In this document: positions 5,747 through 35,566 of the stretch, piece by piece
Numbering within the stretch: the stretch's first letter is position 1
Layout of the letters: each line of letters begins with the position of its first letter
Assembly (NCBI GenBank): GCA_903861125.1
Contig: CAIOTF010000015.1
Coordinates: forward strand, 1 to 64,000
Origin: an uncultured Ignavibacteriota bacterium
Lineage (GTDB): Bacteria > Bacteroidota > Ignavibacteria > UBA10030 > UBA8401
DNA: 64,000 nt
Reading direction: 5' to 3'
Notes under the pieces: generated by a model
Seen by the model: the letters and a program-made list of their open reading frames with translations, nothing else
What the model was told of the DNA's origin: nothing
The model's database searches: none
Made by a program: the position numbers and the translations under genes

Positions 5747-8700
5747 TTAATAGAACATTTCAATCGACGCCGGCAGTTGCGGTACTATAATGTATCCATT
5801 CCGCGAAGATACTTCGCCACCGTTTACCGTCGCTTTTTTTAATTGCGTATTTATTAAGGTTACCGGAATCAGTACCGGCACATGTTCTGCGTGAATGGTG
5901 CCGCTTACGGTTAATTTCACCATTCCGGATTGCTGCGGAAGAATGGCATAAGAAAGATCGCCATAATGCGTCGGGAGATTCTTCACGGACATTCCCTCCT
6001 TCACCCACGCATCTTTTAATCCGGCACCAAGCACAATGGAATGAACATCATCAATCTCATAAACGAACATCGCGCGGATCGCGTTGATGTAATCCGAACC
6101 AACCCATGTATGCGGCATATCGCCGATGAAACGTACTGTACGATACCCATTCGCTACAACTTCTGCCCAATGATTCCATCCTTGTGGCCGCTGGTCGTGC
6201 ATGAAATATTCCAAAACGTAATGAGCCCGTTCTTTTTGTCCGAGATAGACAAATGTTCCTACATTCCTTATCTCATACGGCGTGTATGCTTCCCATGATA
6301 TTTTGTTTTCTGCCCGCTGGACGAACCAGTCGTAATATTTATCAAATGTGTTATTATACGCAGGCTGCGGCACGTAGTTCATTTCTCCATTTAGGAACAG
6401 TGCAATTGATGTGGACGTTGCATCAAAATCCCCCTTCTCTGCGCATCCCGGAACATAATTGATCTTTTTATTTTTCATAACAAGATTAATCGATCCATAG
6501 AGATCAACGCGGAATGCTTTTGCAAGGCTGTCATATTCGCATGCTTCATGCTGTTTTCCCAGTATGGCAGCAGCTTCCGCAATATCCTTAAAACCTTTAA
6601 GGGCAAAGAAATCATCCCAATAAGAATGCATCGGCTTGTCGGAATATCCTTCGTGACTGATCGATTCCGTTACCAATCCGTACAATATTTTTTTCTCATC
6701 GTTTCCTTCACGGTATTCCGGCGTCATCCGTTTTGCGCGAAGTGACTGGATGTAATTTATTGCAGCCGACATAGTATTCCACCGCGCACGAAGGAATGCC
6801 GTGTCTTTGGTGAACCGGAAATATTCCATGCATGCAAAAATCAATTGACCGTGACTGTCATGTTCCGGCACAGGATCCGGTCCGCGCCTGTCCACCACAC
6901 ACGGCACAGCTCCGCTTTCATATTGATACGATGAATACCATTCCAAAAACTTTTTCGGTTCTTCCGTGAGACCAAGTTTCAATAACGCATCGGATGTCAT
7001 TGATCCGTCACGGATCCATGACCGTTCGTATGAACGTGATCCGGGTTGGAAACCATTCTTATCTTTATTGATCAGTATGTATGCCAGATTCGATCTTACA
7101 CGGTCAATAAATCGCTGCGCTTCGGCATTCACCGAAAACTCAACCGTGTTTAACTTTTTTTTCCATTGCAACCTCACTTCGTCGAAAGTCTTCCGGAACT
7201 CTTCCGCCGTAGGCAAATGCTCGTTCCATCTATTCCCGGCATCCAAAAACGGAACGGCCGCAACCACGACAAGCGAATCCCCCGCTTTCAGATCGAATGA
7301 ATATTGAAATGCTCCGGAAGTCATCCCATCTTTTTGCACTGTGCTTTTGTTTGGTGGTATTGAATTCCGCATGATGAAATCAGAGATATCACCCTGATCG
7401 ATCGCTGCGGCTCCTGATGCACCTGGATTACCTGAGACGAATACGGTTTTATCATCCGCATTCGCTCGGTTCTGTGTGAAATCCATGGAGACCGTTTTAG
7501 CAAATCCGCCGTCAAAATTCAACCATTGCGATAACGGGTTCACCTGAAACGGTCTCAGGGCCAGATACAAAGAACCTTGCTGATTTTTAGCCGAAATGTT
7601 TTTAACAACGTATCGCGCCATTATTGAGGATTGTTCCGGTTCTCCGGCAGCAATAAGCGTTGTGCGTAATTCGATATCGGTGTATGTTCTGACAACGGTC
7701 GGAATGGGAAGATAGTCTTCATCAAGTGATTGACTGTTCTTACCATTGGACCAATTCAGTACAGCGTTGCCGGCTTTCATAACGATGAACGGTTCAATTG
7801 AAAACCGCTGTTTATCAACTTCAAAGGCACCATCTTCGCTGAACAATGCTTCACGCGTATCGGAGGCAACTCCGACTACCGTCCAATACGCCTGTTGTTT
7901 TACGAAATAGCGCGGATACATTCCGGCCGGTGACGAAGCCGCAATCCGTTCATAGAACTGATTGGGTGAAGAAACAGCATCACTGGAAACAACGTCGAAT
8001 TCCTCAAGACGAAACGGCACATTGCTTTCGTTTTCTTTCAACTGCAAACGGATGTATCGCGCTTCCGATTCGGGAAGATAGTGCAAAACATTTCCGCTCT
8101 TTCCACGTACAACGGAGCAGACCGTTTCGTATTTTTTGCCGTCGTATGACGCTTGAATGTCATACGAAATTGCTTTCATCGCCGAATCCCAAACAAGATT
8201 GACCGCCCCAAACTCTCTTTCATATTTCAGATCAAATTCGATCCATTCATTCCTACCGCTCTTGCTGATCCACATTCCTTTCTTTCCGGGAACCGCATTC
8301 TGTGGTTGACCATCCTTTTTTGTAAACGTGGAAGCTGTGACAGTTGGTTGAGGAACAACCGACGGTTTTGCCGGAAGTTGTATCAGCGTAACATCGTCGA
8401 TCCACACGCTCCCTTTCCCTCCGCTTCCGGCGGTAACAACAATTTCCAGCCGTGATAATTTTGGCGGAGATGATGCAGGTTTTGTTCCCCACGCAAATCC
8501 GAGATGCCGTTTTTTTATAATTATTTTTTTCCATTCTGACGGATAGGTATAATTCTTATTGTTTACCCACCAGATATTTTCACCGGAACTGTCCCCGCTC
8601 ACTTTCACCTCAAAATTGTTTACGGGAACGGTCGCTTTCATCATAAAGGTGATCTCATAATATTCGGGGAACGGCGTATTGAAATTCCTAATGATACCGC

Positions 8701-8899
8701 CGTATCCTGATCCTTTCGGGAACTCCACATCGAAACGAATAGCACCATTATCCGACTGATGTTTTACGTCAACGCCGATTGATTGGAACGAAGTCCATAC
8801 TTTCGCATCGCTGCAATCGTCAAGAGTGGTTGACCGGCGTGATGTTTGGGAAAAGAGAAGTGACGAGAACATTATGAAGATTACGAATATCTTTTTCAT
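5747..8899 (-). CDS. Exported multidomain six-hairpin glycosidase-like protein
   Basis: A 1050-residue exported protein. It has a signal peptide (MKKIFVIFIMFSSLLFSQ), an N-terminal beta-sandwich resembling a carbohydrate-binding domain (about 20-180, ending in VWIDDVTLI), a F5/8 type C (discoidin)-like domain (about 190-310), and a C-terminal (alpha/alpha)6 six-hairpin region (about 590-950). The last holds YERSWIRDGSM, DSHGQLIFACMEY and SYWDDFFALKGF, of the kind found in amylo-alpha-1,6-glucosidase, GH63 and related folds. The exact GH family is not recognised. There is no T9SS tail, so it is probably periplasmic. The ATG at 8899 is preferred to a TTG four codons upstream, since it starts the signal peptide directly. 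It is the last gene of the sugar locus, about 210 bases after the permease, with a hairpin between them. Confidence 0.75.
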   Translation of the reverse strand: MKKIFVIFIMFSSLLFSQTSRRSTTLDDCSDAKVWTSFQSIGVDVKHQSDNGAIRFDVEFPKGSGYGGIIRNFNTPFPEYYEITFMMKATVPVNNFEVKVSGDSSGENIWWVNNKNYTYPSEWKKIIIKKRHLGFAWGTKPASSPPKLSRLEIVVTAGSGGKGSVWIDDVTLIQLPAKPSVVPQPTVTASTFTKKDGQPQNAVPGKKGMWISKSGRNEWIEFDLKYEREFGAVNLVWDSAMKAISYDIQASYDGKKYETVCSVVRGKSGNVLHYLPESEARYIRLQLKENESNVPFRLEEFDVVSSDAVSSPNQFYERIAASSPAGMYPRYFVKQQAYWTVVGVASDTREALFSEDGAFEVDKQRFSIEPFIVMKAGNAVLNWSNGKNSQSLDEDYLPIPTVVRTYTDIELRTTLIAAGEPEQSSIMARYVVKNISAKNQQGSLYLALRPFQVNPLSQWLNFDGGFAKTVSMDFTQNRANADDKTVFVSGNPGASGAAAIDQGDISDFIMRNSIPPNKSTVQKDGMTSGAFQYSFDLKAGDSLVVVAAVPFLDAGNRWNEHLPTAEEFRKTFDEVRLQWKKKLNTVEFSVNAEAQRFIDRVRSNLAYILINKDKNGFQPGSRSYERSWIRDGSMTSDALLKLGLTEEPKKFLEWYSSYQYESGAVPCVVDRRGPDPVPEHDSHGQLIFACMEYFRFTKDTAFLRARWNTMSAAINYIQSLRAKRMTPEYREGNDEKKILYGLVTESISHEGYSDKPMHSYWDDFFALKGFKDIAEAAAILGKQHEACEYDSLAKAFRVDLYGSINLVMKNKKINYVPGCAEKGDFDATSTSIALFLNGEMNYVPQPAYNNTFDKYYDWFVQRAENKISWEAYTPYEIRNVGTFVYLGQKERAHYVLEYFMHDQRPQGWNHWAEVVANGYRTVRFIGDMPHTWVGSDYINAIRAMFVYEIDDVHSIVLGAGLKDAWVKEGMSVKNLPTHYGDLSYAILPQQSGMVKLTVSGTIHAEHVPVLIPVTLINTQLKKATVNGGEVSSRNGYIIVPQLPASIEMFY

Positions 8900-8989
8900 G
8901 TTTTTCCGCAATAAAATATCTCATGATACGCATAAATGGATTTATTTGTTAAAATGGTTCTGTCAAAGGCATCACTTCGTGAGGCGCCT

Positions 8990-9015
8990 GCCCGCCTAAC
9001 GGCAGTTAGGCGGGC
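8990..9015. repeat. REP-like GC-rich hairpin
   Basis: A perfect 10-bp inverted repeat: GCCCGCCTAA (8990-8999) and TTAGGCGGGC (9006-9015) with a six-base loop, far richer in GC than its surroundings. There is no U-tract, so it looks like a dispersed palindromic repeat or an mRNA-stabilising hairpin between the permease and glycosidase genes, not a standard terminator. Confidence 0.6.
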
Positions 9016-9108
9016 GTACCGATAAACAGCATCGGGTCTTGCTCACCATGACCAGTTTATTTATTTTGCCTGCGGCTCGTAGAGCGTAACATCAGCAAAT
9101 AATTTGGT

Positions 9109-9930
9109 TTATTCTTTCACTCCGCCCACCATAATGCCGCGGACGTAATGACGCTGGAACAGCAGGAACAATGCAAGGACGGGAATAATCGTTACGACAG
9201 AACCAGCCATCATTAATTCCAGATCAAGAACATGCTCTCCCATAAGGTTGGCAAGTCCGACCTGTATCGTATAGTTTGATTGATCGGTCATGATGATCAG
9301 CGGCCACATGAAGTCGTTCCACGATCCCATGAACGTAAAGAGTGCCAGTGTGAAGAGAATCGGCTTGCACAGGGGAAGAATAACAGTTCTGTAAATTCTG
9401 AATTCGCTTGCACCGTCCATGCGCGCCGCTTCAATAAGACTGTCCGGAATTGCCATCACAAACTGGCGGATAAGAAATATTCCAAAGATGCTGGCGATCC
9501 CCGGAATAATTGCACCAACGTACGTATTCACGAATCCCATTGTCTTCAGCATCAAAAACAACGGAAGCATCGTCACTTGCGCGGGAATGATCATGCCGCT
9601 CAGAAGTGCACTAAAGATTCTGTCTCTTCCTTTAAAATGATATTTTGCAAACGCAAAACCTGCCATCGAATTCAGCAGTGTGGAAATGAGCGTCACGGCG
9701 CTTGCAATAATGAAACTGTTCAGGAAATATCTTCCCATGTTCAATCGACCGGTCAATGCGCGGTAATGCTCAAACGTCGGATGTTTAGGAAACATCGGCG
9801 GCGGAAATGTTCCCGCTTCGCCTGGTGACATGAACGAGGCAGACACCATCCAGAGCACGGGAATAAGCGCAGTCAAACCAATAAAAATTAATCCTGCATT
9901 CAGCGATATTTTAGCAATGCGACGTCTCAT
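9109..9930 (-). CDS. ABC sugar importer permease, MalG-type
   Basis: A 273-residue inner-membrane permease of the carbohydrate-uptake-1 class. About six membrane helices are visible. The EAA loop that contacts the ATPase reads EAARMDGASEFRIYRTVILP, matching EAAxxDGA-x8-IxLP. The N-terminus MRRRIAKIS followed by a hydrophobic segment is typical of MalG-like subunits. The start at 9930 overlaps the stop of the upstream permease by one base, so the two are translationally coupled. It should pair with the MalF-type permease and the lipoprotein just upstream. No ATPase gene is in the window, so a shared MsmX/MalK-like ATPase encoded elsewhere is likely. Confidence 0.93.
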   Translation of the reverse strand: MRRRIAKISLNAGLIFIGLTALIPVLWMVSASFMSPGEAGTFPPPMFPKHPTFEHYRALTGRLNMGRYFLNSFIIASAVTLISTLLNSMAGFAFAKYHFKGRDRIFSALLSGMIIPAQVTMLPLFLMLKTMGFVNTYVGAIIPGIASIFGIFLIRQFVMAIPDSLIEAARMDGASEFRIYRTVILPLCKPILFTLALFTFMGSWNDFMWPLIIMTDQSNYTIQVGLANLMGEHVLDLELMMAGSVVTIIPVLALFLLFQRHYVRGIMVGGVKE

Positions 9931-10811
9931 TACTTCACTCTCCGCTGCAGAAGCATTTGCAATAATGTAAAGAAGAGAATGATAATGAACAGAACAAAAG
10001 CGATTGCCGCTGCATATCCCATGCTCCACCATCGAAATCCCTGTTCATACATTAACAACACAATACTCGTTGTTGAATTCAGCGGCCCACCCTGCGTCAT
10101 CACATACGGCTCGGCAAAAAGCTGGAAATAGCCGATGATCGTGATCATCACGATGAATACAGTGGTCGGCTTGAGCATCGGCAGCGTGATCTCTATAAAT
10201 TGCTGCCTCCAGCTGGCACCATCCAAGTGCGCCGCTTCATACAGATCCTCTGGAATGTTCTGCAGGCCGGCAATGAAGATGAGCATATTGTAACCGAAAT
10301 TCTTCCACACTGCCATGATGATGATCGCCGGCATTGCCAGATTAGGATCACCAAGCCAATCAACAGGAGAAATACCGAAATACGATAAAAAATAATTCAA
10401 TAGTCCGTGCGCCGGATGATAGAGATACCGCCAGATGATCGCAACGGCAATAAGGCTGGAAACGACGGGAAGAAAATAGACCGTACGATAGAGAGATTTA
10501 TACTTTGCAAGTTTGGAATTCAGCATCAGTGCTGTTCCAAGTGAAACCGCTACGGAAAGCGGTCCGCCGACAAGAACAAAATAAAATGTGTTTTTTAATG
10601 CTGTCCAAAACAGTGGAGTCTCAACAATCCGCACGTAGTTTTGAAAACCAACGAACCGGATATTTTTCAAGTCGCCGAGCGAATAAATATCAAAATCGGT
10701 AAAGCTCAGCGCGAACGCAGCAAGTACCGGAATGACAAAGAATATCCCGATCATCGCCAATGCGGGGGAAAGAAATATCCATGCTTCTTTCGTTCGGGAA
10801 GTGTTGTTCAT
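9930..10811 (-). CDS. ABC sugar importer permease, MalF-type
   Basis: A 293-residue inner-membrane permease with six predicted helices. It starts with a short cytosolic segment (MNNTSRTKEAW) and the first helix. The EAA loop EAAHLDGASWRQQFIEITLP matches the sugar ABC permease consensus. The start overlaps the stop of the binding-protein gene by four bases (ATGA), and its own stop overlaps the MalG-type start. It forms the transmembrane heterodimer with the next gene. The cargo is inferred from context to be an oligosaccharide released by the GH144 enzymes. Confidence 0.93.
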   Translation of the reverse strand: MNNTSRTKEAWIFLSPALAMIGIFFVIPVLAAFALSFTDFDIYSLGDLKNIRFVGFQNYVRIVETPLFWTALKNTFYFVLVGGPLSVAVSLGTALMLNSKLAKYKSLYRTVYFLPVVSSLIAVAIIWRYLYHPAHGLLNYFLSYFGISPVDWLGDPNLAMPAIIIMAVWKNFGYNMLIFIAGLQNIPEDLYEAAHLDGASWRQQFIEITLPMLKPTTVFIVMITIIGYFQLFAEPYVMTQGGPLNSTTSIVLLMYEQGFRWWSMGYAAAIAFVLFIIILFFTLLQMLLQRRVK

Positions 10812-12082
10812 TGTTGTCTCTCAACCATCCAGCGCCGTTTTTCCAGCATCACATCCACTTCTCCGTCGAACTGCTTCAGTGCGCCGTCGACCGTCATAGT
10901 TTTCGTAGCAATATATTCAACGTATGTCTGCAATCGGATCACAATCTGTTCCCATTCGGGAACCTGCGGCAGCGGATCGACCCGCTGCAGCTGCTGATAG
11001 AATGCTTTAATATATTTGTTGTTTGCCAGAGTCGAATCCTTCCAGGCCGACCGCCGCGGAGGAAGATTTCCGGTGATCTTATAGAATGCGATCGATTGTT
11101 CAACCGACGATAGAAACTCTATAAGTTTCCATGACGCTTCCTTGTGTTTGCTACTGTTGAACATTACCAGACTTGTGCCAAGCGGCAGTGAAACTCCGGG
11201 CCTCAACGAATCCATCGACGGCAGAGGCGCTGTCATCCACGCATTCTGCAGTTCCGGAGGTACGCGGCGGGTGAATTCGCCAATATTCCACGGACCGGTA
11301 ATATACATAGCGATCAGTCCGTCGGAGAACGAATTATAGAGATTCGTGATCAGCTGCATGCCCGAAGGCGAATAATCCTTCCGGTAAAATTCGGACATCA
11401 GGGAAAATGCATTCCTGAATTCTCCGCCGCTGAAATTTCCTCTGGAATTTTTATTCTTCAAGAAATTCCCTCCGGACTGCATTCCCAGCACAATCGCCGG
11501 TACCCATTCGCTCGTTGGAAGGAAAATAGGATAGCATATTTTATTCTTTGCTTTCGCCTGTTGCTGAATAATCTCCGATGCCTTCAGCACTTCGCTCCAT
11601 GTTTCCGGAAATTTTTCATATCCCGCAAGTTTCAGGATGTCCTTTCTGTAAAAAATGACACGCGTATCTACATACCATGGAAGTCCATACAGTACGGAGT
11701 CAAGAATGTTCGTCTTTAAGACTCCCGGGAATATATCATTGAGATCAACACGCGATGACCGCTGAACGAACGGACCAAGCGGTTCAAGCGAGTGAAGAAC
11801 ATTGAACTCGGGAAGCCATGTATTTCCCAATTGGCACACGTCCGGTGTTGACTCGCCGGCATAGGCAGTCAATAATTTTTCATGCGCCGCCGTCCAGGGA
11901 ATCTGCTGTACTTCTACTTTAATGGTCGGATTTTGCCGCTCAAATTCCTGTATCAGCGGCCGGACCATTTCTCCTTCATTCCCGAATCCCCAGAATTTGA
12001 TCACAGTCTGCTCATCGGTTGGATGACAGTTGAAGAAGAGAACTGTAACAAAGCAGATCGCTATTTTTAACATTTTAGACAT
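10808..12082 (-). CDS. Extracellular sugar-binding lipoprotein of the ABC importer
   Basis: A 424-residue solute-binding protein of the MalE/UgpB class. The leader runs to FFNC, a loose Bacteroidota lipobox whose Cys would be lipidated, so it is probably tethered to the periplasmic face of a membrane. The mature protein opens with TVIKFWGFGNEGEMV and contains QQIPWTAAHEKLLTAYAG and DVCQLGNTW, typical of family 1 binding proteins. The nearest upstream start is 12082; an alternative ATG lies three codons in (12073). Neither has a clear ribosome site. It ends in a four-base overlap with the MalF-type permease and follows the GH2 gene after 21 bases. Confidence 0.9.
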   Translation of the reverse strand: MSKMLKIAICFVTVLFFNCHPTDEQTVIKFWGFGNEGEMVRPLIQEFERQNPTIKVEVQQIPWTAAHEKLLTAYAGESTPDVCQLGNTWLPEFNVLHSLEPLGPFVQRSSRVDLNDIFPGVLKTNILDSVLYGLPWYVDTRVIFYRKDILKLAGYEKFPETWSEVLKASEIIQQQAKAKNKICYPIFLPTSEWVPAIVLGMQSGGNFLKNKNSRGNFSGGEFRNAFSLMSEFYRKDYSPSGMQLITNLYNSFSDGLIAMYITGPWNIGEFTRRVPPELQNAWMTAPLPSMDSLRPGVSLPLGTSLVMFNSSKHKEASWKLIEFLSSVEQSIAFYKITGNLPPRRSAWKDSTLANNKYIKAFYQQLQRVDPLPQVPEWEQIVIRLQTYVEYIATKTMTVDGALKQFDGEVDVMLEKRRWMVERQQ

Positions 12083-12103
12083 TATTGATCGATCGGTTTT
12101 GTA

Positions 12104-14764: not shown

Positions 14765-16153
14765 TTACTTTTTCTGTGGTATTGAATCCAGCCATCCGCC
14801 GGTGAATCCGGCACGCTGCAATCCTTTCACAATGTAAGGATTCCTTTTCATAACATTCCATACCAGTCCGGATCTCAGATTTTCAATCATAAGCACGATC
14901 GGTCCCTGGTCAATACCAAGATAATCGCGGTCAATCCAGCCGGCAGGAGTTGCATCGGTGATGTAAGTAAGATTATATGCATCAAGAAATCCATAGTTCG
15001 ACCACACACCAGGCACACGGTTGCGTATATTCTTCAACGTTGGGATGCAGATCTCGGGTGCGAAGGCTACGGAACCGCCAGCAGCTGTCGGCGCTATTGT
15101 TCCGTCATCATTGACCCAATCAGCAGAGACACCTCTCGCACAATAAGTGGAAAATAGGCGGCTCACTCCGCCGATCGTCCGTGTTTCATCCGCTGGTCCA
15201 TCACACGCGGTAAATCCCCACATGAATTCCGAATACCCATTCATTTTTTTAGGATTTGATTTTGCGTATGACTGATGGGTTAAAGTTGCTCGACGTGAAT
15301 TCTCAAAATAGTCGATCCCCTTCTGCCGCATATATGCATCGCGTATTCCGCGAAAATCTATCCATGCATGTGAATAGTGATGACCGAATAACGGACCGAA
15401 GCTTGTGAATTCCTGACCGAAATATGATAACCATTGAAAATTTTTTGTATATCCGGACCAGGTATTTTCATCAACAGCATGCGTGGGAGATCCAAGGGCG
15501 AGAATATGAAGGATCATTGATTCATCATAACCACGCCAATCGGAAGAGTGAATTCCCTTGTCAGGGAACCAACCCATACTGATCAGCGGCGGACGCGCTT
15601 GAAGCCACTTCCAGTCGACACGCCGAAACATTGAATCAGCATACGCACGGATTTCTTTCTCAGCCGGATCTTCGTTGTCAAAATACGATTGGCAAAATAA
15701 CACTCCGGCAAGAAGCAACGCAGTATCGATGGTAGAGAGTTCAATATTTCTGTTGAACCGGGTTCCTGTTTTCAAATCGAGAAAATGATAGAAGTATCCC
15801 CGGTATCCCGCTGCACCCATCATGGCATCGCTCTGCGGAAGACGGTAGAGATACCGTATCGTCGTCAAAACTCTTTCCGCAGCTGCCTGTCGGGTAACAT
15901 ATTTTCGTTCTGCGCCGATACCGTATGAGGTCAGCGCAAATCCAATAGCCGCAGTGCTGGAAAATGTTTTCGTTGGATACCGGTCAGGCGTCAGGCCCGT
16001 AGACGGATCGACACAGTTCCAGAAGTAGTTAAATGTGTGTTGTTCAAGTGTATCAAGGAAACCGTCGCGGAAATATTGCGTGTTTGTGCTGCTTTGCGGA
16101 AATGCGCAGTGGAAGAACGAAAAAAACAACAGTGCAAAGAATGGTCTCTTCAT
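14765..16153 (-). CDS. GH144-family (endo-beta-1,2-glucanase-like) enzyme without sorting tail
   Basis: A 462-residue exported protein, essentially one (alpha/alpha)6 domain of the PF10091 type. This type was long labelled 'glucoamylase' but corresponds to GH144, whose characterised members cleave beta-1,2-glucan. Landmarks shared with the neighbouring paralogue are HTFNYFW, GYRGYFYHFLDL, ELSTIDTALLLAG, GYDESMILHILALG, FGHHYSHAWIDFR and YLGIDQGPIVLMIENLRSG. The leader MKRPFFALLFFSFFHCAFPQ ends in a signal peptidase I site or, less likely, a loose lipobox at the Cys. With no T9SS tail it should be periplasmic. It overlaps the paralogue by four bases (ATGA). Enzyme class is well supported by family; exact product size is not known. 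Confidence 0.85.
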   Translation of the reverse strand: MKRPFFALLFFSFFHCAFPQSSTNTQYFRDGFLDTLEQHTFNYFWNCVDPSTGLTPDRYPTKTFSSTAAIGFALTSYGIGAERKYVTRQAAAERVLTTIRYLYRLPQSDAMMGAAGYRGYFYHFLDLKTGTRFNRNIELSTIDTALLLAGVLFCQSYFDNEDPAEKEIRAYADSMFRRVDWKWLQARPPLISMGWFPDKGIHSSDWRGYDESMILHILALGSPTHAVDENTWSGYTKNFQWLSYFGQEFTSFGPLFGHHYSHAWIDFRGIRDAYMRQKGIDYFENSRRATLTHQSYAKSNPKKMNGYSEFMWGFTACDGPADETRTIGGVSRLFSTYCARGVSADWVNDDGTIAPTAAGGSVAFAPEICIPTLKNIRNRVPGVWSNYGFLDAYNLTYITDATPAGWIDRDYLGIDQGPIVLMIENLRSGLVWNVMKRNPYIVKGLQRAGFTGGWLDSIPQKK

Positions 16154-20468: not shown

Positions 20469-20501
20469 AATTGTATGGTTACTGGTTCTATTCGAACGTG
20501 A

Positions 20502-21512: not shown

Positions 21513-21526
21513 ATCAGTGAGGTTAT

Positions 21527-24826: not shown

Positions 24827-24848
24827 ACACAATTATTGGTTTTATACA

Positions 24849-27518: not shown

Positions 27519-27617
27519 GTGAGATGATATTTTTATTATGGGGGTGGAGCGATGCCCGGTGACAATTTTTTGTGTGCCGGAAGTTTATGATTCTGCAACT
27601 ACGCGAACGGTAAATAA

Positions 27618-27642
27618 ATGAGAGAGGGTGGACCTCTCTCAT
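27618..27642 (-). terminator. Hairpin downstream of the CBM9-like T9SS protein
   Basis: A perfect 10-bp stem ATGAGAGAGG (27618-27627) with CCTCTCTCAT (27633-27642) and a five-base loop. On the minus strand it is followed by TTTATTTA, a weak U-tract. It lies 15 bases after the stop of the upstream gene and 100 bases before the TonB receptor start, so it is either a terminator or a processing/attenuation hairpin. Confidence 0.6.
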
Positions 27643-27656
27643 GATTGAACATAGTA

Positions 27657-29537
27657 CTATTTCATAAGTATCATTTTGGAGAATGGAGTAGCATATTCTT
27701 TTCCGGTCGCACTCTGATGCATGCGCAATTGATAATAGTATACACCAGTGCTCAAATGAGAAGCATTGAAATTGACCGAATGCTGACCCGAAGTGAACTG
27801 TCCGACATCGCTTGTTGAAATACTGCGGCCAAGAATGTCGAAAACCGACAGCGTCACCCTTCCGGCAGACGGTGCTATGAATTTAATGGTCGTCGAAGGA
27901 TTAAAGGGATTAGGATAATTACCGAGCAGAACAAATTCTGTCGGCATCGTGTTACTTGCCGTTTTTCCTACACCAGTTAACACCATTGCAGAATCCATGT
28001 ACATATACGCTGCTGCTGCAAAACCATCATGCTCCCTGAACCACCACGTTCGTGTGCCGTAACTTAATGACGATGGAATGTACGAATCGCCGTCAAAAAG
28101 TGTCAAACCCAAATAGAGAACGCCGTCACCAAGTCCGGAAGGATACCCCATCTTCGTCAGATCGATCGCTTGTTCAATTTGATAACCTGCGTCTTCATCA
28201 ATACCGGTCGTATCAAGAGTAGTGTTTGGTTTCAATTTCAGGGCTACCTGAGCACCTTTTAATGAATCTCGGAATGTCGGATAATAATCCTTTAAACTAT
28301 CAGTTCCGTTTTTACCGACGATCACCGTTAACTTGATCGGTATTTGATCATGGTCAGTTTGATTTTGATAGTCTTTTCCAAGGCCATTCATGGTGATCAT
28401 GAAACCATCCCAGCGGTCATATACATCAAGAAATTGAACTGCCTGGTCTTGAACGTCAACGCCTATATATAAAATATTTCCTTTGAAGAACAACTTTACA
28501 TTTGCTTTCGATGAATCAAAGACCGTTGCCGTTCCACCGTTAACGGTTGGTTGATATTCTCCGCTCGCATATGGTCCGACACTTGCATAGGCGTTCCGGA
28601 TTTTTTTGTCACCGAACCGGATATCGATTCCCGGTATTTTTCCCCACACCGCTTCATCGAGTTTGCCGTCGATAATAGGTGTTGCCATAAGTTTACCGTT
28701 TGGAATGGTATATTCCGGCATCAATTTCGGAATTGTTCCGGAGGATGCAGTCACATCGGGACGGACATGAATTCGCAGAAAGTTCTTATTGCTCACATTT
28801 GCCCAGGGTCCCTGGATCCAGGTTCTGCTGAACGTCACCCAATCTTGAACCGGGAAAAACCAATCGACGTCGCGGAATGCTGCGTTGAACATAATAATAT
28901 CGCCGGCCGGAGTAGATGGTTTATAGCCTAACTTTTTGATGTTGATCTTCATTTCAACCGTATAACCGGTATCCGCTTTCGCATCGGTGTTGGTAATTCC
29001 TTGAACGGTTGTCGCTGTTTCAAAATCGGTTAATGTATATTTTCCGTTTGGCCCTGTCGACGGCATACCGCCGACCGATTTCACTGCACCGGGATTCATC
29101 CACCCTTCATCAATCCATCCGTACAAATATTCGCCCGAAGGAGCAGGACGGCGGGTTGAATCACTTTTATCGCGGATATTAAAAATAATTGCATCGGCAG
29201 CTCCGAAGTTTCCTCCGCCGATCGAACTATCTTTTACCGTAAAAGCAAGATAGAGTGAATCCCCCATCACTAAAAATTTTACCCAGGCACGCGTGGAATC
29301 AAACACGGTACCGGTTTCTGCAGTATAACCGCTTCCGGGTAGGCCTGAACTCTTTCCATATTGGACGTAGAGAGATTCTGCTTTAGACCAGACTGATTCA
29401 TTCAGTTTTCCGTCAAGCACAATTGAACCCGACGGTACCGTCCGTGCCCATATTGCATCTGTTCGTTTTGACTGGCCGACAACGGCCAACGAAAGCAACA
29501 TTAGGCATGTCGCTATTTTGTAGAATTTTCGGATCAT
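27657..29537 (-). CDS. T9SS-exported protein with two CBM9-like modules
   Basis: A 626-residue surface protein. It has a signal peptide (ends near VVGQS), two carbohydrate-binding-module-9-like domains (about 25-260 and 285-520), each opening with the signature IxLDGKLNESVW / ATPIIDGKLDEAVW, and a T9SS type A tail from LLGNYPNPFNPSTTIKFIAP to the final KMILMK. CBM9 proteins bind glycan chain ends; no catalytic domain is visible, so it is most likely a surface glycan binder. It is a shorter relative of the five-repeat protein just upstream and is separated from it by a strong terminator, so it probably has its own promoter. Confidence 0.82.
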   Translation of the reverse strand: MIRKFYKIATCLMLLSLAVVGQSKRTDAIWARTVPSGSIVLDGKLNESVWSKAESLYVQYGKSSGLPGSGYTAETGTVFDSTRAWVKFLVMGDSLYLAFTVKDSSIGGGNFGAADAIIFNIRDKSDSTRRPAPSGEYLYGWIDEGWMNPGAVKSVGGMPSTGPNGKYTLTDFETATTVQGITNTDAKADTGYTVEMKINIKKLGYKPSTPAGDIIMFNAAFRDVDWFFPVQDWVTFSRTWIQGPWANVSNKNFLRIHVRPDVTASSGTIPKLMPEYTIPNGKLMATPIIDGKLDEAVWGKIPGIDIRFGDKKIRNAYASVGPYASGEYQPTVNGGTATVFDSSKANVKLFFKGNILYIGVDVQDQAVQFLDVYDRWDGFMITMNGLGKDYQNQTDHDQIPIKLTVIVGKNGTDSLKDYYPTFRDSLKGAQVALKLKPNTTLDTTGIDEDAGYQIEQAIDLTKMGYPSGLGDGVLYLGLTLFDGDSYIPSSLSYGTRTWWFREHDGFAAAAYMYMDSAMVLTGVGKTASNTMPTEFVLLGNYPNPFNPSTTIKFIAPSAGRVTLSVFDILGRSISTSDVGQFTSGQHSVNFNASHLSTGVYYYQLRMHQSATGKEYATPFSKMILMK

Positions 29538-29563
29538 AGACTATTCCTATAATAGTAAAAATA

Positions 29564-29604
29564 ATTGCTGCCGGAAAATTGATGGTGCTCTTTCCGGCAG
29601 CAAT
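29564..29604 (-). terminator. Rho-independent terminator after the five-repeat protein
   Basis: A 14-bp perfect stem ATTGCTGCCGGAAA (29564-29577) with TTTCCGGCAGCAAT (29591-29604). On the minus strand it is followed by TATTTTTACTATT. It lies just after the stop at 29613 and so ends the lacI-CBM9 transcript. Confidence 0.85.
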
Positions 29605-29612
29605 GGTGGATG

Positions 29613-32600
29613 TTATTTCAGCAGTATCATTTTCTTCGTTTCAACAAATTTGCCGGCCTGAATTCGATAGATATAAATTCCGGTTGCCAGTTTATTGGCA
29701 TTGAAGGAAACCTGATAGTTGCCGATCTTTTGTTCTGCATTAACCAATGTAGCAACTTCCTGACCGATCATATTATAGACTTTCAGGACAACCTGGCTTA
29801 CTGCAGGTATTGAATACCTGATTGTCGTTGATGGATTAAATGGATTCGGATAATTCTGGGACAGCGAGAACACTACCGGTATTTGTTCGTCATCATTAAC
29901 ACCGGTGATGCTGGGCAGAAGCACTGTTTTAAACGCTGAACCCCATTCACTACCCCACCATGATTTGTAATATGAACCTCTCGCTGAATCCCACGGAGCC
30001 ATAGGATGCTGGTATCCATCGGGATCGAATACATTCAGCGACATGAGGAACGGAACAGGACTATTCGTTGCCGTATAACCTAACGATGTTAATTTGATCA
30101 TCAATTCCGCAGTGTATCCATTGTCAATATTGGTTGTATCATTCACCGTTGAACCTGTGGCCAGAAATCCTGCACCGGCGCCGGAATTCAAAACGGATTC
30201 CTCATAGCGGATTGTGTCTTTGTTCCCCGCTATGTTTTGATAATACAACTTATATTCTTTGGTCGCACCCGATTTATCTTTTACCTGCAGGAACATTCCG
30301 TCCCCTTCCCAGTCAAATTTACATATCGATTTGTCATTAGACTGAATACCAAGATACAGGTTGCTTCCTCGCTGCATGAACTTAACACGTGCACTGCTTG
30401 TATCTTTATACGGCACGTGATATATCACACCGTTAACATTAAAGGACGCTTTAATATCATAACCGTCCGTTACCGATTTTTCTGTTCCGGTTTTTGCAAC
30501 ATTCGGCAGTCCAAAGACTAACGTTGGTGCACTCGCCCAATCCGTTTCAGTTAATTTTCCATCAAGCGTGATCGCAGATGTAGCAAGGAACGGCTTAACA
30601 GTATCCGGATTGTCGTACGCCGGCAACAAACTAATCGTTCTAAAACTCGAGCCCCATTCACTACCCCACCATGATTTGAAATATGATCCGCGTGCACTGT
30701 CCCACGGATTCATACCGTACGGCCAAGGCAATGCGGCGTTGAATTGATATCCATCCGGATCAAAGATATTCATGGAAAGCTGGACTGCGTTTACGGTTGC
30801 GGCATATCCTAACTTATCCAGTCGGATGCGAAGTTCCGCAGAATATCCATTATCCACATTGGTGGTATCGTTTGCCGTTGAACCAGCGGCCAGAAATCCT
30901 GCACCAGCACCGGAATTCAACACGCTCTCTTCATATCGAATCGTGTCTTTATTCCCTGCGATGTTCTGATAATACAACTTGTATTCTTTTACTACACCGG
31001 CATTATCTTTTATCTGAACAAAGAGTCCTTCACCTTCCCAGTCGAATCTGCAGATGGATTTGTCATTCGATTGAACACCAATAAATAGATCGACTCCCTT
31101 ATGTATGAATTTCACTCTCGCCCATGAACTATCTTTGTTCGGATTATAATACGTAACCCCGTTCACATCGAATGATGCTTTGAGATCATATCCGCCGGAT
31201 ACCGTGCGATCGGAACCCTGTTTCTTTAATTGGGCACCGTTACCAAATAATAAGGAAGGAGCACTTCCCCATTCCGGTTCATCTAATTTTCCATCAAGTG
31301 TAACAACACCGACAATATTTGCTGCTGCCATCATTTGGGGATCTTCGTATTCTTTTGCTTCGGGAACAAAGTTCAGTTTTCTGAAACTCGAACCCCATTC
31401 ACTGCCCCACCACGACTTAAAGTAGGAACCGCGTGCACTGTCCCATGGACTCATTCCATACGGCCAAGGTAATGCTGCGTTAAATTGGAATCCGTCCGGA
31501 TCGAAGATGTTCATCGAAATTTGAACGCTGTCAAACGGTGCAGCATATCCTAATTTATCCAAACGTATACGAAGTTCTGCCGTATAACCATTGTCCACAT
31601 TTGTTGTATCATTGGCAGTCGATCCGGCCGGTAAAAATCCTGCGCCGCCGCCGGAATTCAAGACGCTCTCTTCATATTTAATCGTGTCTTTATTCCCTGC
31701 AATGTTTTGGTAATACAACTTGTATTCTTTGGTCACTCCTGCTTTATCTTTAATCTGAACAAACAACCCTTCGCCTTCCCAATCAAACCGGCAGATGGAT
31801 TTATCATTCGACTGCACTCCTAAAAAGAGATCCGGTCCCTTGCGTAAGAATTTAACTCTTGCCCACGAACTGTCTTTGTTTGCATTATGATAGGTCACAC
31901 CGTTCACGTCGAACGATGCTTTCAGATCGTAGCCGCCGCTCACTGTGCGGTCCACACCTTGTTTTCTTAAATGAGCACCGTTACCGAACAGCAAGGAAGG
32001 AGCGCTTCCCCATTCCGGTTCATCTAACTTTCCATCGACAGAAATTGCATCGGCATTCTTTACCAGCATTGCCGGCGGATCGTCGTATTCTTTTACTTCA
32101 GGAGTAAAGAATAAAGTTTTGAAATTTGAACCCCATTCACTACCCCACCACGATTTGAAGAATGATCCGCGTGCTGAATCCCACGGGCTCATTCCATACG
32201 GCCAGGGCAATGCTGCATTAAACTGAAATCCGTCTGCATCAAAAATGTTCATCGATATCTGAACATTTTTTAACGGCGCTGTATATCCCAATTTATCCAA
32301 CCGTATGCGAAGTTCTACCGTATAACCATTGTCCACATTTGTTGTATCATTGGCAGTCGAACCGGCCGGAAGGAATCCTGCACCGCTTCCGGAATTCAAA
32401 ACACTCTCTTCATATTTGATGGTGTCTTTGTTCCCTGCAATATTTTGATAATACAGTTTGTATTCTTTTGTTACTCCCGCAGTATCTTTAATTTGGACAA
32501 ACAAACCTTCACCTTCCCAATCGAACCGGCAGATCGATTTATCATTCGATTGAACTCCAATGATAAGATCCGGCCCTTTACGTAAAAATTTAACTCTCGC

Positions 32601-34319
32601 CCACGAACTGTCTTTGTTCGGATTATGATATGTTACTCCGTTGACATCAAAGGATGATTTAATATCAAATCCGCTGCTGACAGTTTGATCCAAACCCTGT
32701 TTTCTCAAATGAGCACCATTTCCAAATAACAATGATGGAGCATTCCCCCATTCCGGTTCATCCAATTTGCCATCAATTGTCACGGCAGCCGCATTCCGCA
32801 CTTGCATGACTGCAGGATCATCGTACTTTATTGGTTCCGGTGTGAAATTCAACATTTTGAAATTTGAACCCCATTCACTCCCCCACCATGACTTAAAATA
32901 TGAACCGCGTGCGCTGTCCCACGGACTCATACCGTACGGCCAAGGCAATGCAGCGTTGAATTGAAATCCGTCCGGATCGAAAATGTTCATTGATATCTGA
33001 ACATTATTCAACGGAAGTGTATATCCAAGTTTATCCAGGCGTATTCGCAATTCCGCAGTATATCCGTTATCCATGTTCGTCGTATCGTTCGCTGTGGATC
33101 CTGCGGGCAAATATCCGGCACCTCCTCCGGAATTCAGAACGGATTCCTCATATTTAATGGTATCCTTATTCCCTGCGATGTTCTGATAATACAATTTGTA
33201 TTCTTTTGTTACTCCGGCATTATCTTTTATCTGGACAAAAATCCCTTCGCCTTCCCAATCGAAACGGCAGATGGATTTATCATTCGATTGCACACCGACA
33301 AAAAGATCGGTGCCTTTACGCAGGAATTTAACGCGCGCCCATGAACTGTCGGTGTTTGGGATGTGGTATGTTACCGCATTGACATCAAACGATGATTTGA
33401 GGTCAAAGCCTCCGGTCACCGTCTGATCGCCGGCTTGTTTCTTTAAGTGTACACCGTTACCAAAAAACAATGCCGGTGCATTCGCCCATTCCGGTTCGTC
33501 TAACTTTCCGTCAAGCGTTACTGATTCGGCATTCTTTACCGGCATTGATGCGGGATCATCGAAATAAATTGATTTAACAGCTTCTCCCCAGGTTTTGGCA
33601 ACTCTAATTCCATCAACCATGACTGTCGGTGAGCTTGTCGCGGTTCCTTGACGTAAATTTACAATACCAAGGTCCGTAGCATCTGTTTGTGTTGTCGTGA
33701 TCGGTCCAACCGTTGGTGTTGACGGCTCCACGGTGGGAAGATTCGGATTTGCAAAAACGAAAAGACTTGTTTCGTCATCAGTGGTGCTTCCGGTAAGGAA
33801 TTTATATTTTATGACAATAAGGTATGTAGTATTCAACGAATAGATTGAATCACTGTAACTCGCCGGAATGGTAGCAGAAACTGAGGTCTTACTTATCCCA
33901 AAAGTTAATTTTCCATTATCTGCCAGCCGGACAAATAACCTGCCGAAAAATGCATTGCTGGTTATCAGTCCCTGCGTAAAATGATAAAAATAATCACCCG
34001 TCAGACCAGCCGAAACATTAACCAGTACTGAAGAATAAACTGTACCGGAGTTTTGTGAAGTAAAAGAATTGAATACATCTTGTCCGGTATTTGTTAGCGA
34101 TACGGCATTCCCAATATTTGATCCTATATATCCCGTATATGCAAGACCGGGATTTGCAACATTGATCACATTGGTGACAGAAGTTCCTGTGATGGTCCAT
34201 CCATTTGCTGTTAAGGCTGTTCCTGCAGTATAATTAAAATTTTCTTGCAGCAACAACTGAGCATTTGCTGTAATGAAGCCAGCAAATATCGATGCAAAAA
34301 GCAATAATAGTTTTTTCAT
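29613..34319 (-). CDS. T9SS-exported surface protein with five tandem CBM9-like repeats
   Basis: A 1568-residue protein. The signal peptide MKKLLLLFASIFAGFITANA begins at 34319, where an AAGGATT ribosome site precedes the ATG; the frame stays open further upstream but without signs of coding. An N-terminal domain of about 230 residues looks like a LamG-type beta-sandwich. Then come five copies of a module of about 245 residues, each containing VTLDGKLDEPEWxxAP, SWARVKFLRKG, SICRFDWEGEG, KEYKLYYQNIAGNKDTI, TAELRIRLDKLGY and FKSWWGSEWGS. Copies 1-4 are nearly identical; copy 5 is more diverged (SICKFDWEGDG). A T9SS type A tail (SLSQNYPNPFNPSTTIRYSI) ends the protein at KMILLK. It is probably a multivalent glycan-binding surface protein. 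It follows lacI by 89 bases and is likely cotranscribed. Confidence 0.85.
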   Translation of the reverse strand: MKKLLLLFASIFAGFITANAQLLLQENFNYTAGTALTANGWTITGTSVTNVINVANPGLAYTGYIGSNIGNAVSLTNTGQDVFNSFTSQNSGTVYSSVLVNVSAGLTGDYFYHFTQGLITSNAFFGRLFVRLADNGKLTFGISKTSVSATIPASYSDSIYSLNTTYLIVIKYKFLTGSTTDDETSLFVFANPNLPTVEPSTPTVGPITTTQTDATDLGIVNLRQGTATSSPTVMVDGIRVAKTWGEAVKSIYFDDPASMPVKNAESVTLDGKLDEPEWANAPALFFGNGVHLKKQAGDQTVTGGFDLKSSFDVNAVTYHIPNTDSSWARVKFLRKGTDLFVGVQSNDKSICRFDWEGEGIFVQIKDNAGVTKEYKLYYQNIAGNKDTIKYEESVLNSGGGAGYLPAGSTANDTTNMDNGYTAELRIRLDKLGYTLPLNNVQISMNIFDPDGFQFNAALPWPYGMSPWDSARGSYFKSWWGSEWGSNFKMLNFTPEPIKYDDPAVMQVRNAAAVTIDGKLDEPEWGNAPSLLFGNGAHLRKQGLDQTVSSGFDIKSSFDVNGVTYHNPNKDSSWARVKFLRKGPDLIIGVQSNDKSICRFDWEGEGLFVQIKDTAGVTKEYKLYYQNIAGNKDTIKYEESVLNSGSGAGFLPAGSTANDTTNVDNGYTVELRIRLDKLGYTAPLKNVQISMNIFDADGFQFNAALPWPYGMSPWDSARGSFFKSWWGSEWGSNFKTLFFTPEVKEYDDPPAMLVKNADAISVDGKLDEPEWGSAPSLLFGNGAHLRKQGVDRTVSGGYDLKASFDVNGVTYHNANKDSSWARVKFLRKGPDLFLGVQSNDKSICRFDWEGEGLFVQIKDKAGVTKEYKLYYQNIAGNKDTIKYEESVLNSGGGAGFLPAGSTANDTTNVDNGYTAELRIRLDKLGYAAPFDSVQISMNIFDPDGFQFNAALPWPYGMSPWDSARGSYFKSWWGSEWGSSFRKLNFVPEAKEYEDPQMMAAANIVGVVTLDGKLDEPEWGSAPSLLFGNGAQLKKQGSDRTVSGGYDLKASFDVNGVTYYNPNKDSSWARVKFIHKGVDLFIGVQSNDKSICRFDWEGEGLFVQIKDNAGVVKEYKLYYQNIAGNKDTIRYEESVLNSGAGAGFLAAGSTANDTTNVDNGYSAELRIRLDKLGYAATVNAVQLSMNIFDPDGYQFNAALPWPYGMNPWDSARGSYFKSWWGSEWGSSFRTISLLPAYDNPDTVKPFLATSAITLDGKLTETDWASAPTLVFGLPNVAKTGTEKSVTDGYDIKASFNVNGVIYHVPYKDTSSARVKFMQRGSNLYLGIQSNDKSICKFDWEGDGMFLQVKDKSGATKEYKLYYQNIAGNKDTIRYEESVLNSGAGAGFLATGSTVNDTTNIDNGYTAELMIKLTSLGYTATNSPVPFLMSLNVFDPDGYQHPMAPWDSARGSYYKSWWGSEWGSAFKTVLLPSITGVNDDEQIPVVFSLSQNYPNPFNPSTTIRYSIPAVSQVVLKVYNMIGQEVATLVNAEQKIGNYQVSFNANKLATGIYIYRIQAGKFVETKKMILLK
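29930..33545 (-). repeat. Five tandem DNA repeats of about 740 bp
   Basis: The in-frame CBM9-like units are about 740 bp each, with approximate boundaries at 33545, 32810, 32070, 31330, 30600 and 29930. The conserved marker encoding LDGKLDEPEW recurs near 33490, 32750, 32008, 31270 and, degenerate, 30540. Unit junctions are repeated almost base for base (for example CCCCATTCACTACCCCACCA at about 32130 and 30655). Confidence 0.9.
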
Positions 34320-34408
34320 CGCTTTAATCCTTAAATGTTTGTGAAATAAGTGATTTATAGTACGTGATGTATCAAAGATAATTTGGAATGTGCATTTTAA
34401 GATGATAC

Positions 34409-35461
34409 TCAACGCAGAATGATCATCTCTTTTTCTTGTGTGGATTTACCATTTAATTTTTTACAACTGTTTCTTATGGACAGTGTGGTCGGGACGAAGA
34501 TATGCGCTGCATCGCCTTTCGTTCTTTTGTGCAAACGGTCGAACACTCGAGAAATTGCCATCGCACCAAGTTCGTGAATGGGCACATGCACTGATGTCAA
34601 TGATGGACTTAAATATTTAGCGACTGGAATATCATCGAATCCGCAAACGGAAATGTCATTCGGGATTCGTAAGCCCGCATCGCGAATCGCACCGATTGCA
34701 CCGATAGCCATAGAATCATTGAATGTAAAAATTGCAGACGGTCTCTCTTCAAGTTCCAGAATTTCGCGAGCTGCTTCAAATCCGGACGCTTCCGTAAAAT
34801 CTCCGTCAAACTCGTATGCTTTGTTCAATGGCACACCATGAGTCGCGAATGCACTACGATATCCCCGCAACCGTTCTTGAGACTCTATATTATTTTCTCC
34901 CCCCTTGACAACGGCGATTCGTGTATGGCCAAGACTAAAAAGATAGGAGACCATATCTCTTGCTCCGCCAAATCCATCGGTGACAATTGTATCAAAGTGG
35001 GGATTGTTGATGTGACAATTTAAAAGGACTACGGGAAGTGATTTGGGTAAGGTGTCAAGCAGCAGTTCCGATTCTACCTGCGGCGACATCACGACCAAAC
35101 CATCAACCCTGCCTCTCATGAATCGCAGAGCTGCTTCTATCTCTTTTGGATCGTTGTGTGAACTTGAGACGATTAAATGATAACCCTGGTGTTGGATTGT
35201 TGCATCTGCACCACGTATGATCTCAGAGAAAAATTCGCCATGAAGATCCGGTAGTAATAATCCTATCGCTTCCGTTTTGCGCATGATCAAACCGCGCGCG
35301 GCAGGACTCGGCGCATATTTCATTTCGTTAATAACAGCAAGAACAATCTCACGGGTCTCCGGCTTCACCTTGTCGCTTTCATTTAAAACACGCGAAACGG
35401 TAGCAATTGAAACACCGGCTTTTTTTGCAACATCTATTATGCTCGAACGAATATCTGTCAT
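34409..35461 (-). CDS. LacI-family transcriptional repressor
   Basis: A 350-residue regulator. The N-terminal helix-turn-helix and hinge (about 7-60) read IIDVAKKAGVSIATVSRVLN and YAPSPAARGLIMRKT; the rest is a periplasmic-binding-protein-like sensor domain (about 65-340) with FTFNDSMAIGAI and ISVCGFDDIP. It probably binds a sugar from the locus and releases DNA in response. A 16-bp perfect palindrome lies 63 bases upstream of its start on its own promoter, which indicates autoregulation. It is the first gene of the sugar locus, followed on the same strand by the five-repeat surface protein. Confidence 0.93.
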   Translation of the reverse strand: MTDIRSSIIDVAKKAGVSIATVSRVLNESDKVKPETREIVLAVINEMKYAPSPAARGLIMRKTEAIGLLLPDLHGEFFSEIIRGADATIQHQGYHLIVSSSHNDPKEIEAALRFMRGRVDGLVVMSPQVESELLLDTLPKSLPVVLLNCHINNPHFDTIVTDGFGGARDMVSYLFSLGHTRIAVVKGGENNIESQERLRGYRSAFATHGVPLNKAYEFDGDFTEASGFEAAREILELEERPSAIFTFNDSMAIGAIGAIRDAGLRIPNDISVCGFDDIPVAKYLSPSLTSVHVPIHELGAMAISRVFDRLHKRTKGDAAHIFVPTTLSIRNSCKKLNGKSTQEKEMIILR

Positions 35462-35523
35462 TAATGAAAACCTTTACATTTGTTCGCGTTACGTTACCCA
35501 AGACAAAAATTATATCAATCGTC

Positions 35524-35539
35524 ATGTAAACGTTTACAT
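35524..35539. promoter_or_regulatory. LacI-family operator
   Basis: ATGTAAACGTTTACAT is a perfect 16-bp palindrome with the central CG and the AAACGTTT core usual for LacI-family operators. It overlaps the -10 hexamer of the lacI promoter and covers the expected transcription start. A partial copy (CTTTACATT) lies at about 35472-35480. Confidence 0.75.
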
Positions 35540-35566
35540 TTTAGCTACAAAAATACAAATAGTCAA
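35538..35566 (-). promoter_or_regulatory. Promoter of the lacI-CBM9 transcript
   Basis: On the minus strand TTGACT (35566-35561), a 17-base spacer, then TAAAAT (35543-35538). The operator overlaps it. A second possible -10, TATAAT, lies nearer the gene at about 35506-35511. Confidence 0.55.

Follow-up and report, generated by a model that had tools for sequence, protein, structure and literature searches.

A putative LacI-controlled β-1,2-glucan locus of an uncultured Ignavibacteriota bacterium, containing one of 15 paralogous TonB-X-PorV gene triads

The window analysed here comprises 64,000 nucleotides of contig CAIOTF010000015.1 (positions 1 to 64,000) of an uncultured Ignavibacteriota bacterium (assembly GCA_903861125.1), whose genome of 4.19 Mb in 54 contigs has a completeness of 100. 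It contains 14 genes, all on the minus strand, in one run (5747-35461) with intergenic gaps of at most ~200 bp behind a single LacI-type operator. We consider it probable that this run is one LacI-controlled locus for the scavenging of β-1,2-glucan. In this locus, the genes of a TonB-dependent transporter, a 1101-aa protein that we call X and a PorV-family barrel, one of 15 paralogous TonB-X-PorV triads of the genome, would work as an analogue of the SusC/SusD pair (SusCD). X is the most telling gene of the locus. We propose that X reaches the cell surface through the type IX secretion system (T9SS) and there, held by its own barrel, acts as partner of the TonB transporter in a SusCD analogue without SusD. 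We observed the anatomy and the distribution of the triad, and we infer both the complex and its function.

SusCD, with a lipoprotein as its lid, is the textbook glycan uptake route of Bacteroidota. In the proposed pathway, the TonB transporter would carry glucan fragments across the outer membrane, with X, and not a SusD lipoprotein, as its surface partner. X would be secreted by the T9SS and kept on the membrane by a PorZ-like C-terminal domain that escapes cleavage and docks in a PorV-family barrel of its own. A wider proposal, which we regard as evenly balanced between right and wrong, is that Ignavibacteria and neighbouring lineages of the Fibrobacterota-Chlorobiota-Bacteroidota group import polymers in this way, each TonB transporter having a large T9SS-exported X seated by such a domain in a dedicated PorV-family barrel. 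The triad would then have been copied repeatedly and adapted to different foods, among them glucan, starch and peptides, standing in for SusC/SusD and breaking the rule of one PorV for all type-A-like cargo.

We found no explanation in the literature for the capture of large substrates by TonB transporters of the window's class, which has few or no SusD genes. The triad would be a concrete, deletable answer to this question, and it would tie nutrient uptake to type IX secretion. It would also add a further type IX signal class, coupled to multi-copy PorV-family barrels, and offer a marker by which the substrate preferences of genomes from metagenomes could be predicted. The β-1,2-glucan locus would be the best first test case for the triad, since relatives of its enzymes and of its binder have been characterised.

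Gene identities were assigned by Pfam and NCBIfam profile scans of the open reading frames (ORFs) of the window. These scans bore out the gene list of a preliminary description made from the sequence alone, which had placed on one strand a LacI repressor, two T9SS-tagged CBM9 proteins, a TonB receptor, a PorV/PorQ-like barrel, a glycoside hydrolase (GH) of family GH94, two GH144 enzymes, a GH2 enzyme, an ATP-binding cassette (ABC) sugar-binding protein (SBP) with two permeases, and a six-hairpin protein. The listed genes are real, but the gene of X (21527-24832), between the TonB and PorV genes, had been left off. Because it was absent from the list, the triad was overlooked.

The TonB-X-PorV triad and the C-terminal domain of X

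The first gene of the triad (24849-27518) encodes a TonB-dependent transporter which, despite its CarbopepD_reg_2 domain, plug and barrel, scored below the cut-off of the SusC/RagA model TIGR04056 (72.1 versus 368.25 bits). X, encoded by the second gene, has a signal-like N-terminus, belongs to no Pfam family and has paralogues in its own genome. The third gene (20502-21512) encodes an outer-membrane barrel of the PorV/PorQ family, which passed the family model NF033709 (PorV_fam; 189.7 bits, cut-off 90) but stayed below the cut-offs of the PorV equivalog (81.1 of 250 bits) and of PorQ (80.1 of 220 bits).

A whole-genome search with X returned 28 matching stretches, and the PorV-family model found 20 genes over its cut-off. 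The best-scoring of these adjoins PorU and is presumably PorV itself. Reading of 20 stretches of the genome revealed 15 intact TonB-X-PorV triads, including that of the window. A TonB-type CarbopepD_reg_2 domain lies 2-9 kb upstream, on the same strand, of 16 of the 20 PorV-family genes, 15 times with X in between and once without. The distance matrices of TonB, X and PorV across the 15 triads were correlated (Mantel r of 0.81, 0.70 and 0.81; p = 0.0001 each), as expected if the triad was copied as a unit, and the distances of X tracked those of TonB as closely as the PorV distances did (0.81). The flanks of the triads differ. Among 10 flanking proteins scanned, we found LacI and an alpha-amylase (contig 39), GH2 and CBM9 (contig 48), M28 and M16 peptidases (contig 11) and GH63-like enzymes (contig 9).

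In related genomes, TonB-PorV pairs were identified by coordinates, and the intervening gene was read only at GH144 loci. Four single-contig relatives had the TonB domain upstream of at least 10 of 13, at least 10 of 16, at least 9 of 14 and at least 4 of 10 PorV-family genes, where random placement gave means of 0.13-0.37. In a draft relative this held for at least 6 of 12.

The last ~100 residues of X (21527-21826, minus strand) resemble a T9SS C-terminal domain. In leave-one-out profile comparisons within the genome, all 15 X tails and all 29 ordinary cargo tails fell in separate classes, although a short motif had served to select the cargo tails, and this selection makes them differ more sharply from X. 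The tail of PorU scored higher with the X profile (41.4) than with the cargo profile (32.4). Among NCBIfam models, the best match of the X tails was PorZ in 11 of 15, PorU in two and the type A model TIGR04183 in one, with no match for the remaining tail. The window's X tail matched the PorZ C-terminus (NF052228) at 27.0 bits and gave no TIGR04183 match at E 0.01; all X tails were far below the PorZ whole-protein cut-off of 260, as expected for one domain. With TIGR04183 (cut-off 23), three X tails passed (24.4, 26.8 and 28.7 bits), seven scored below (17.5-21.8 bits) and five were not reported, and the three ordinary cargo tails that were run all scored 38.8-49.9. Full-length X proteins matched PorZ in 8, TIGR04183 in 7 and PorU in 3 of 15 cases at E 0.01. 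The best-match and cut-off scores thus place the X tails between type A and PorZ/PorU, nearer to PorZ/PorU.

This position bears on how X may be held at the surface. In PorZ and PorU the C-terminal domain is retained (PMC11285876), PorZ pairs 1:1 with PorQ and PorU with PorV (PMC5562754), and according to a review cognate PorV-like barrels may shield such domains from cleavage (PMC10202324). A single PorV is said to serve all type A cargo, whereas PorP/SprF barrels are encoded next to type B cargo (PMC12618676). X, which comes with a PorV-family barrel of its own, matches neither arrangement.

Pfam scans of the 15 X proteins gave CHU_C in two, CHRD in one and fn3 in one, and a profile of X found no sequence match among PDB chains at E 0.1. 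Foldseek matches of the predicted X model, with PorZ (5m11) at rank 5, were not used as evidence because of the low model confidence.

Four other stretches of the genome deserve mention. On contig 39 (184001-204000), a triad comes with a LacI of its own, with an alpha-amylase (PF00128) and with a T9SS protein whose CBM20 match is sub-threshold; it looks like a starch system without SusD. On contig 11 (49001-65831), M16 and M28 peptidase genes follow a triad, which suggests peptide uptake. Within 126001-146000 of contig 17, a TonB gene is followed directly by a PorV-family gene, and an X-like ORF of 753 aa lies at the edge of the stretch, ~4 kb upstream. Contig 50 has, from position 19137, seven consecutive ORFs on the same strand with the type A T9SS motif in their tails.

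Linkage in related genomes and distribution of SusD

Linkage was investigated in two samples. We read 34 GH144 neighbourhoods, chosen from the 124 of 395 genomes with a GH144 match, and called TonB, X and PorV together in 13 of them and X in 15. In the others X was missing from the stretch read, owing to contig ends, to ORF-calling losses or to their being SusD loci. In GC-rich genomes, longer antisense ORFs displaced some TonB, X and PorV genes in simple ORF calling, and for the named loci these counts are replaced by tblastn counts. The second sample consisted of the best 80 of 399 relatives of X in named genomes, whose flanking genes were counted by tblastn. Because the query was an alignment of X from the GH144 neighbourhoods, the resulting figures are valid for close relatives of the window's X and not for X at large.

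A TonB gene adjoined X in all 62 relatives with >3.6 kb of upstream sequence, and a PorV-family gene adjoined X in all 71 relatives with >1.4 kb downstream. Of the well-flanked loci, those with >8 kb on each side of X, 25 of 25 had a GH144 gene, so that the refuting case named in the preliminary description, related genomes in which the genes are never linked, did not arise; a small CBM9 gene was likewise present in 25. LacI was found in 23 of these loci, GH94 in 20, the six-hairpin protein in 12, and GH2 and SBP in 8 each. Linkage in relatives rules out a chance neighbourhood. The nearest named record for X (CAJBTU010000289.1; 95% identical) comes from an uncultured Ignavibacteriae bin. Record titles of the X relatives include Ignavibacteria, Calditrichota, KSB1, Eisenbacteria, Krumholzibacteriota, Latescibacterota, Fibrobacter and others, where labels of single metagenome-assembled genomes may be wrong.

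The operator is a perfect 16-bp palindrome, ATGTAAACGTTTACAT (35524-35539, no strand), upstream of lacI and hence of the entire run. Its 14-bp core, with at most two mismatches, preceded LacI in 18 of the 31 named-record loci and in 5 of 14 loci of other genomes, compared with 12 of 700 random windows of the latter. The site was absent from 13 of the named-record loci and from 9 of the others, and hence is not universal.

The enzymes of the locus vary among copies. Six genomes with the triad have, elsewhere in the cluster, a GH94 protein of 1123-1161 aa that replaces the short GH94 (two checked by Pfam); the one compared by score had 770 bits to glucan synthase versus 290 bits to the next family. 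The window's GH2 is replaced in other copies by another GH2, a GH35/GLMA protein or a GH3. One such locus (G144) encodes a 709-aa GH35/GLMA protein resembling IaSGT, the GH35 glucosyltransferase of Ignavibacterium album. The 690-744-aa proteins of another genome (f6) and similar ones were also considered as IaSGT-like GH35, but both of those tested turned out to be another GH2.

As the preliminary description had claimed, SusD is missing: the SusD families PF07980 and PF14322 gave no matches in the whole genome, with Bacteroides ihuae as a positive control. Among 198 genomes of the phylum, 154 had a match to the PorV family (E 1e-20) and 104 to SusD (E 1e-5), and 155 genomes hold either. Numbers per genome were counted among the matches listed, so that values near 10-11 mean at least that many. 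Across the 155 genomes, the numbers of PorV-family and SusD matches were anti-correlated (rho -0.62). None of the 73 genomes with at least 7 PorV matches had 7 or more SusD matches; 35 had no SusD and 38 had some. By comparison, 37 of the 57 genomes with 1-3 PorV matches had at least 7 SusD matches, and 6 had none. Among 49 genomes from the window's class or nearer with PorV-family genes among the matches listed, a hand count gave a single SusD match in 8 and none in 41.

Both uptake types, SusD and triad, serve the GH144 enzyme family. In a genome from another family of the phylum (G065, 4573-7364), GH144 genes lie beside genes for SusD and a laminin-G protein, and in a similar locus (G061) a GH3 was verified.

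Enzymes, sugar-binding protein and substrate

The run begins with the LacI-family repressor (34409-35461; PF00356, PF13377). It is followed by a large repetitive CBM9-like protein (29613-34412; PF06452, PF18962), whose true start is probably nearer 34319, and a smaller CBM9-like protein (27657-29537), identified by profile matches. Both have a type A T9SS tail, that of the large protein scoring 43.9 bits with TIGR04183. The stretches between the two CBM9 genes (29538-29612) and before the TonB gene (27519-27656) contain inverted repeats, seen by eye, which possibly set differing expression of the surface proteins and the transporter.

Downstream of the triad lie GH94 (18075-20468; PF17167) and the two GH144 genes. 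GH144-A (16150-18075) has a signal-like N-terminus, an Fn3-like part, the GH144 domain and a type A T9SS tail (PF10091, PF18962), and may be located at the cell surface. GH144-B (14765-16153; PF10091) has a signal-like N-terminus and no T9SS tail, and is probably periplasmic. The earlier notion of T9SS surface enzymes hence stands for GH144-A but not for GH144-B. The PF10091 scores of the two were 262.1 and 225.8 bits, and they were the only matches in the genome (E 0.001). For both, the best PDB match was Xanthomonas XCC2207 (XcSGL; 8xul), the closest characterised GH144, with 506.8 bits for GH144-B and 344.9 bits for GH144-A. Hydrolysis of β-1,2-glucan by XCC2207 has been demonstrated (PMC12102758). 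The Glu motif is present in both (E211 in GH144-B, E314 in GH144-A), as is the ELSxID motif. The Phe and Tyr of the clan were not both found at the spacing expected from XcSGL numbering, a comparison by numbering only.

GH94 lacks a signal-like N-terminus. Its assignment as a classical SOGP was not supported, the match to 5h3z, a Lachnoclostridium SOGP, being only 36.3 bits. The GH2 enzyme (12104-14764) was identified by profile scan. Next come the SBP (10808-12082; PF01547), judged by eye to be probably a lipoprotein, and two ABC permeases (9930-10811 and 9109-10032; both PF00528), the second with a true start probably near 9927. The SBP matched 3uor (402.9 bits) and Lin1841 (5ysb; 228.3 bits), presumably the sophoro-oligosaccharide binder of the Listeria cluster. 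The binder of that cluster takes sophoro-oligosaccharides (PMC8861115). No ABC ATPase was found among the ORFs scanned at the locus; the genome has one match to the MalK-type OB domain, on contig 31.

Hydropathy was used as the only indicator of export. The first 60 residues contained no hydrophobic stretch in 8 of 8 GH94 orthologues and 4 of 4 GH2 orthologues, which suggests that both enzymes are cytosolic; the window's own GH2 scored 2.2 in this test, which we attribute to an internal stretch near residue 45 of its sequence. Hydrophobic N-termini were found on GH144-A, GH144-B, SBP, X and PorV, in most but not all orthologues, some of which have wrong starts. These results agree with the earlier suggestion that an ABC importer feeds GH94 and GH2.

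β-1,2-Glucan is well supported as the likely substrate of the locus by sequence comparison. The earlier view of the set as one β-1,2-glucan locus gains from the similarity of the GH144 pair to XCC2207, from the relationship of the SBP to Lin1841 and from the GH144 linkage in relatives. In the pathway that we propose, the CBM9 proteins would hold the glucan and GH144-A, delivered to the surface by the T9SS, would cut it. After passage through the outer membrane, GH144-B would trim the fragments in the periplasm. The SBP and the two permeases, together with a MalK-type ATPase encoded elsewhere, would import sophoro-oligosaccharides, which GH94 and GH2 would split in the cytosol by phosphorolysis and by hydrolysis or transfer.

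The last gene of the run (5747-8911) encodes the six-hairpin protein, with a signal-like N-terminus, two carbohydrate-binding-like domains, a beta-sandwich and an (alpha/alpha)6 barrel; profile scans found no T9SS tail. It was present in 13 of the 34 GH144 neighbourhoods. Its predicted model is good (pLDDT 85.1). The N-terminal domains gave profile matches to CBM32 chains and an Endoglucanase H module, and these binding domains accounted for all profile matches among PDB sequences, with none for the catalytic part. Bac_rhamnosid6H scored 28.0 bits (cut-off 24.5), which would fit a GH78-like rhamnosidase, but in structure comparison (VIA) rhamnosidases, a GH65 enzyme, dextran dextrinase and amylo-alpha-1,6-glucosidase tied as neighbours of the beta-sandwich and barrel (Z 24.8-26.6). 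The protein is probably a glycoside hydrolase of the pathway outside the families tested. Our guess is that it serves an alpha-linked or cyclised end.

Known systems, alternative explanations and neighbouring genes

The preliminary description had rated the locus as an undescribed system. This cannot be maintained, as Kobayashi et al. proposed the same route for Ignavibacterium album in 2022 (PMC8861115). In its cluster (~IALB_1177-1187), the route runs from an extracellular GH144 through TonB, a periplasmic GH144 and an ABC importer with a Lin1841-like binder to GH94. Two GH144 enzymes, a CGS-like GH94 (CGS, cyclic glucan synthase), a Lin1841-like SBP with ABC importer and a TonB transporter are common to both loci. 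The I. album cluster differs in having the GH35 glucosyltransferase IaSGT (GH3 is also named), where the window has GH2 and the six-hairpin protein; GH35 was not among the scanned ORFs of the window's locus. Furthermore, neither X nor a PorV barrel is mentioned for it in the excerpt of PMC8861115. Hence, the window's locus is a further member of the I. album-type pathway with other finishing enzymes, and the pathway is not new. The Listeria SOGP cluster has a related sugar-binding protein but a different cell envelope. For the triad, no paper was found among open-licence PMC papers, and the excerpts of PMC12578637, PMC12611786 and PMC5317091 make no mention of it.

The triad shares features with three known arrangements. 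Like SusC/SusD loci, it has a TonB transporter with an adjacent gene for a surface partner, many paralogues per genome and its own hydrolases beside each copy, and SusC/SusD loci also occur with GH144 (G065). It differs in lacking SusD, in a partner with a T9SS-like C-terminal domain and a PorV-family barrel, and in ABC import to the cytosol. The PorZ-PorQ and PorU-PorV pairs of the T9SS attachment complex likewise combine a surface protein carrying such a domain with a PorV/PorQ-family barrel, but they are parts of the secretion machine, whereas the window's kind is multi-copy and lies beside TonB transporters. Type B T9SS cargo with PorP/SprF resembles the triad in that a cargo gene is followed by its own barrel gene, with one pair per function (PMC12618676). 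In contrast, the window's barrel belongs to the PorV family and the tail of X is nearest to PorZ.

The same β-1,2-glucan locus might also take up its substrate by the TonB transporter alone, with X a mere surface adhesin or coat and the PorV paralogue a mere secretion shuttle. This is the most serious of the alternatives, though clearly the less likely explanation. Type B cargo with adjacent PorP/SprF shuttles comprises known or predicted adhesins (PMC12618676), and X gave Fn3/Ig-type Foldseek matches, from the poor model, besides the fn3 match in one of the 15 X proteins. An adhesin would not account well for the adjacency of TonB and PorV genes to X at all testable loci (62 of 62 and 71 of 71), for distances of X that follow those of TonB as closely as the PorV distances do, or for the differing substrate genes beside the triads. 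We think it improbable that the barrel is a FadL-like channel or an accessory of the β-barrel assembly machinery (BAM) and not the anchor or shuttle of X. PorV and the BamG subunit of the Bacteroidota BAM are both homologous to FadL (PMC12578637), but the window's barrel scored only 28.9 bits with BamG (cut-off 250), and the 15 barrel copies each directly follow a protein with a T9SS-like tail. Equally doubtful is a locus for another β-glucan or a cellobiose-type disaccharide, served by GH144-fold enzymes of shifted specificity. It would suit a GH94 nearly as close to cellobiose phosphorylase as to CGS, and Group 4 of the same clan (not GH144) was inactive on every substrate tried (PMC12102758). 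Against this, β-1,2 linkages are indicated by the GH144 pair, by GH94, by the SBP and by the long GH94 found in other copies, and both GH144 enzymes have the Glu and ELSxID motifs.

Several observations weigh against a β-1,2-glucan locus with a SusCD-like triad. The class border of the tails is not absolute, since three of the 15 X tails exceed the type A cut-off, type A being the top match for one of these three, and a further tail has no match at all. Of the 34 GH144 neighbourhoods, no more than 15 yielded an X call, and SusD loci are among the remainder (SusD was checked in G065). One TonB-PorV pair, on contig 17, has no X in between. At least one SusD is present in 38 of the 73 PorV-rich genomes, and 6 of the 57 PorV-poor genomes have none; these exceptions imply that triad-type and SusD systems are not exclusive. 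The Mantel values and the anti-correlation take no account of phylogeny. GH94 scored 567.6 bits with CGS and 469.1 bits with cellobiose phosphorylase, a margin of only ~100 bits, and sequence comparison gave no specific relative of GH2 with established β-1,2 activity. The predicted model of X is poor (pLDDT 55.5) and therefore gives no view of X over the transporter or on glycan.

The genes that follow the locus immediately downstream (270-5129, same strand) encode a serine/threonine kinase with beta-propeller repeats, an ABM-domain protein and a GAF-SpoIIE phosphatase. On its other side, the window contains housekeeping genes, with a B12-dependent methionine synthase (43302-46793) and, further on, DNA ligase and shikimate dehydrogenase.

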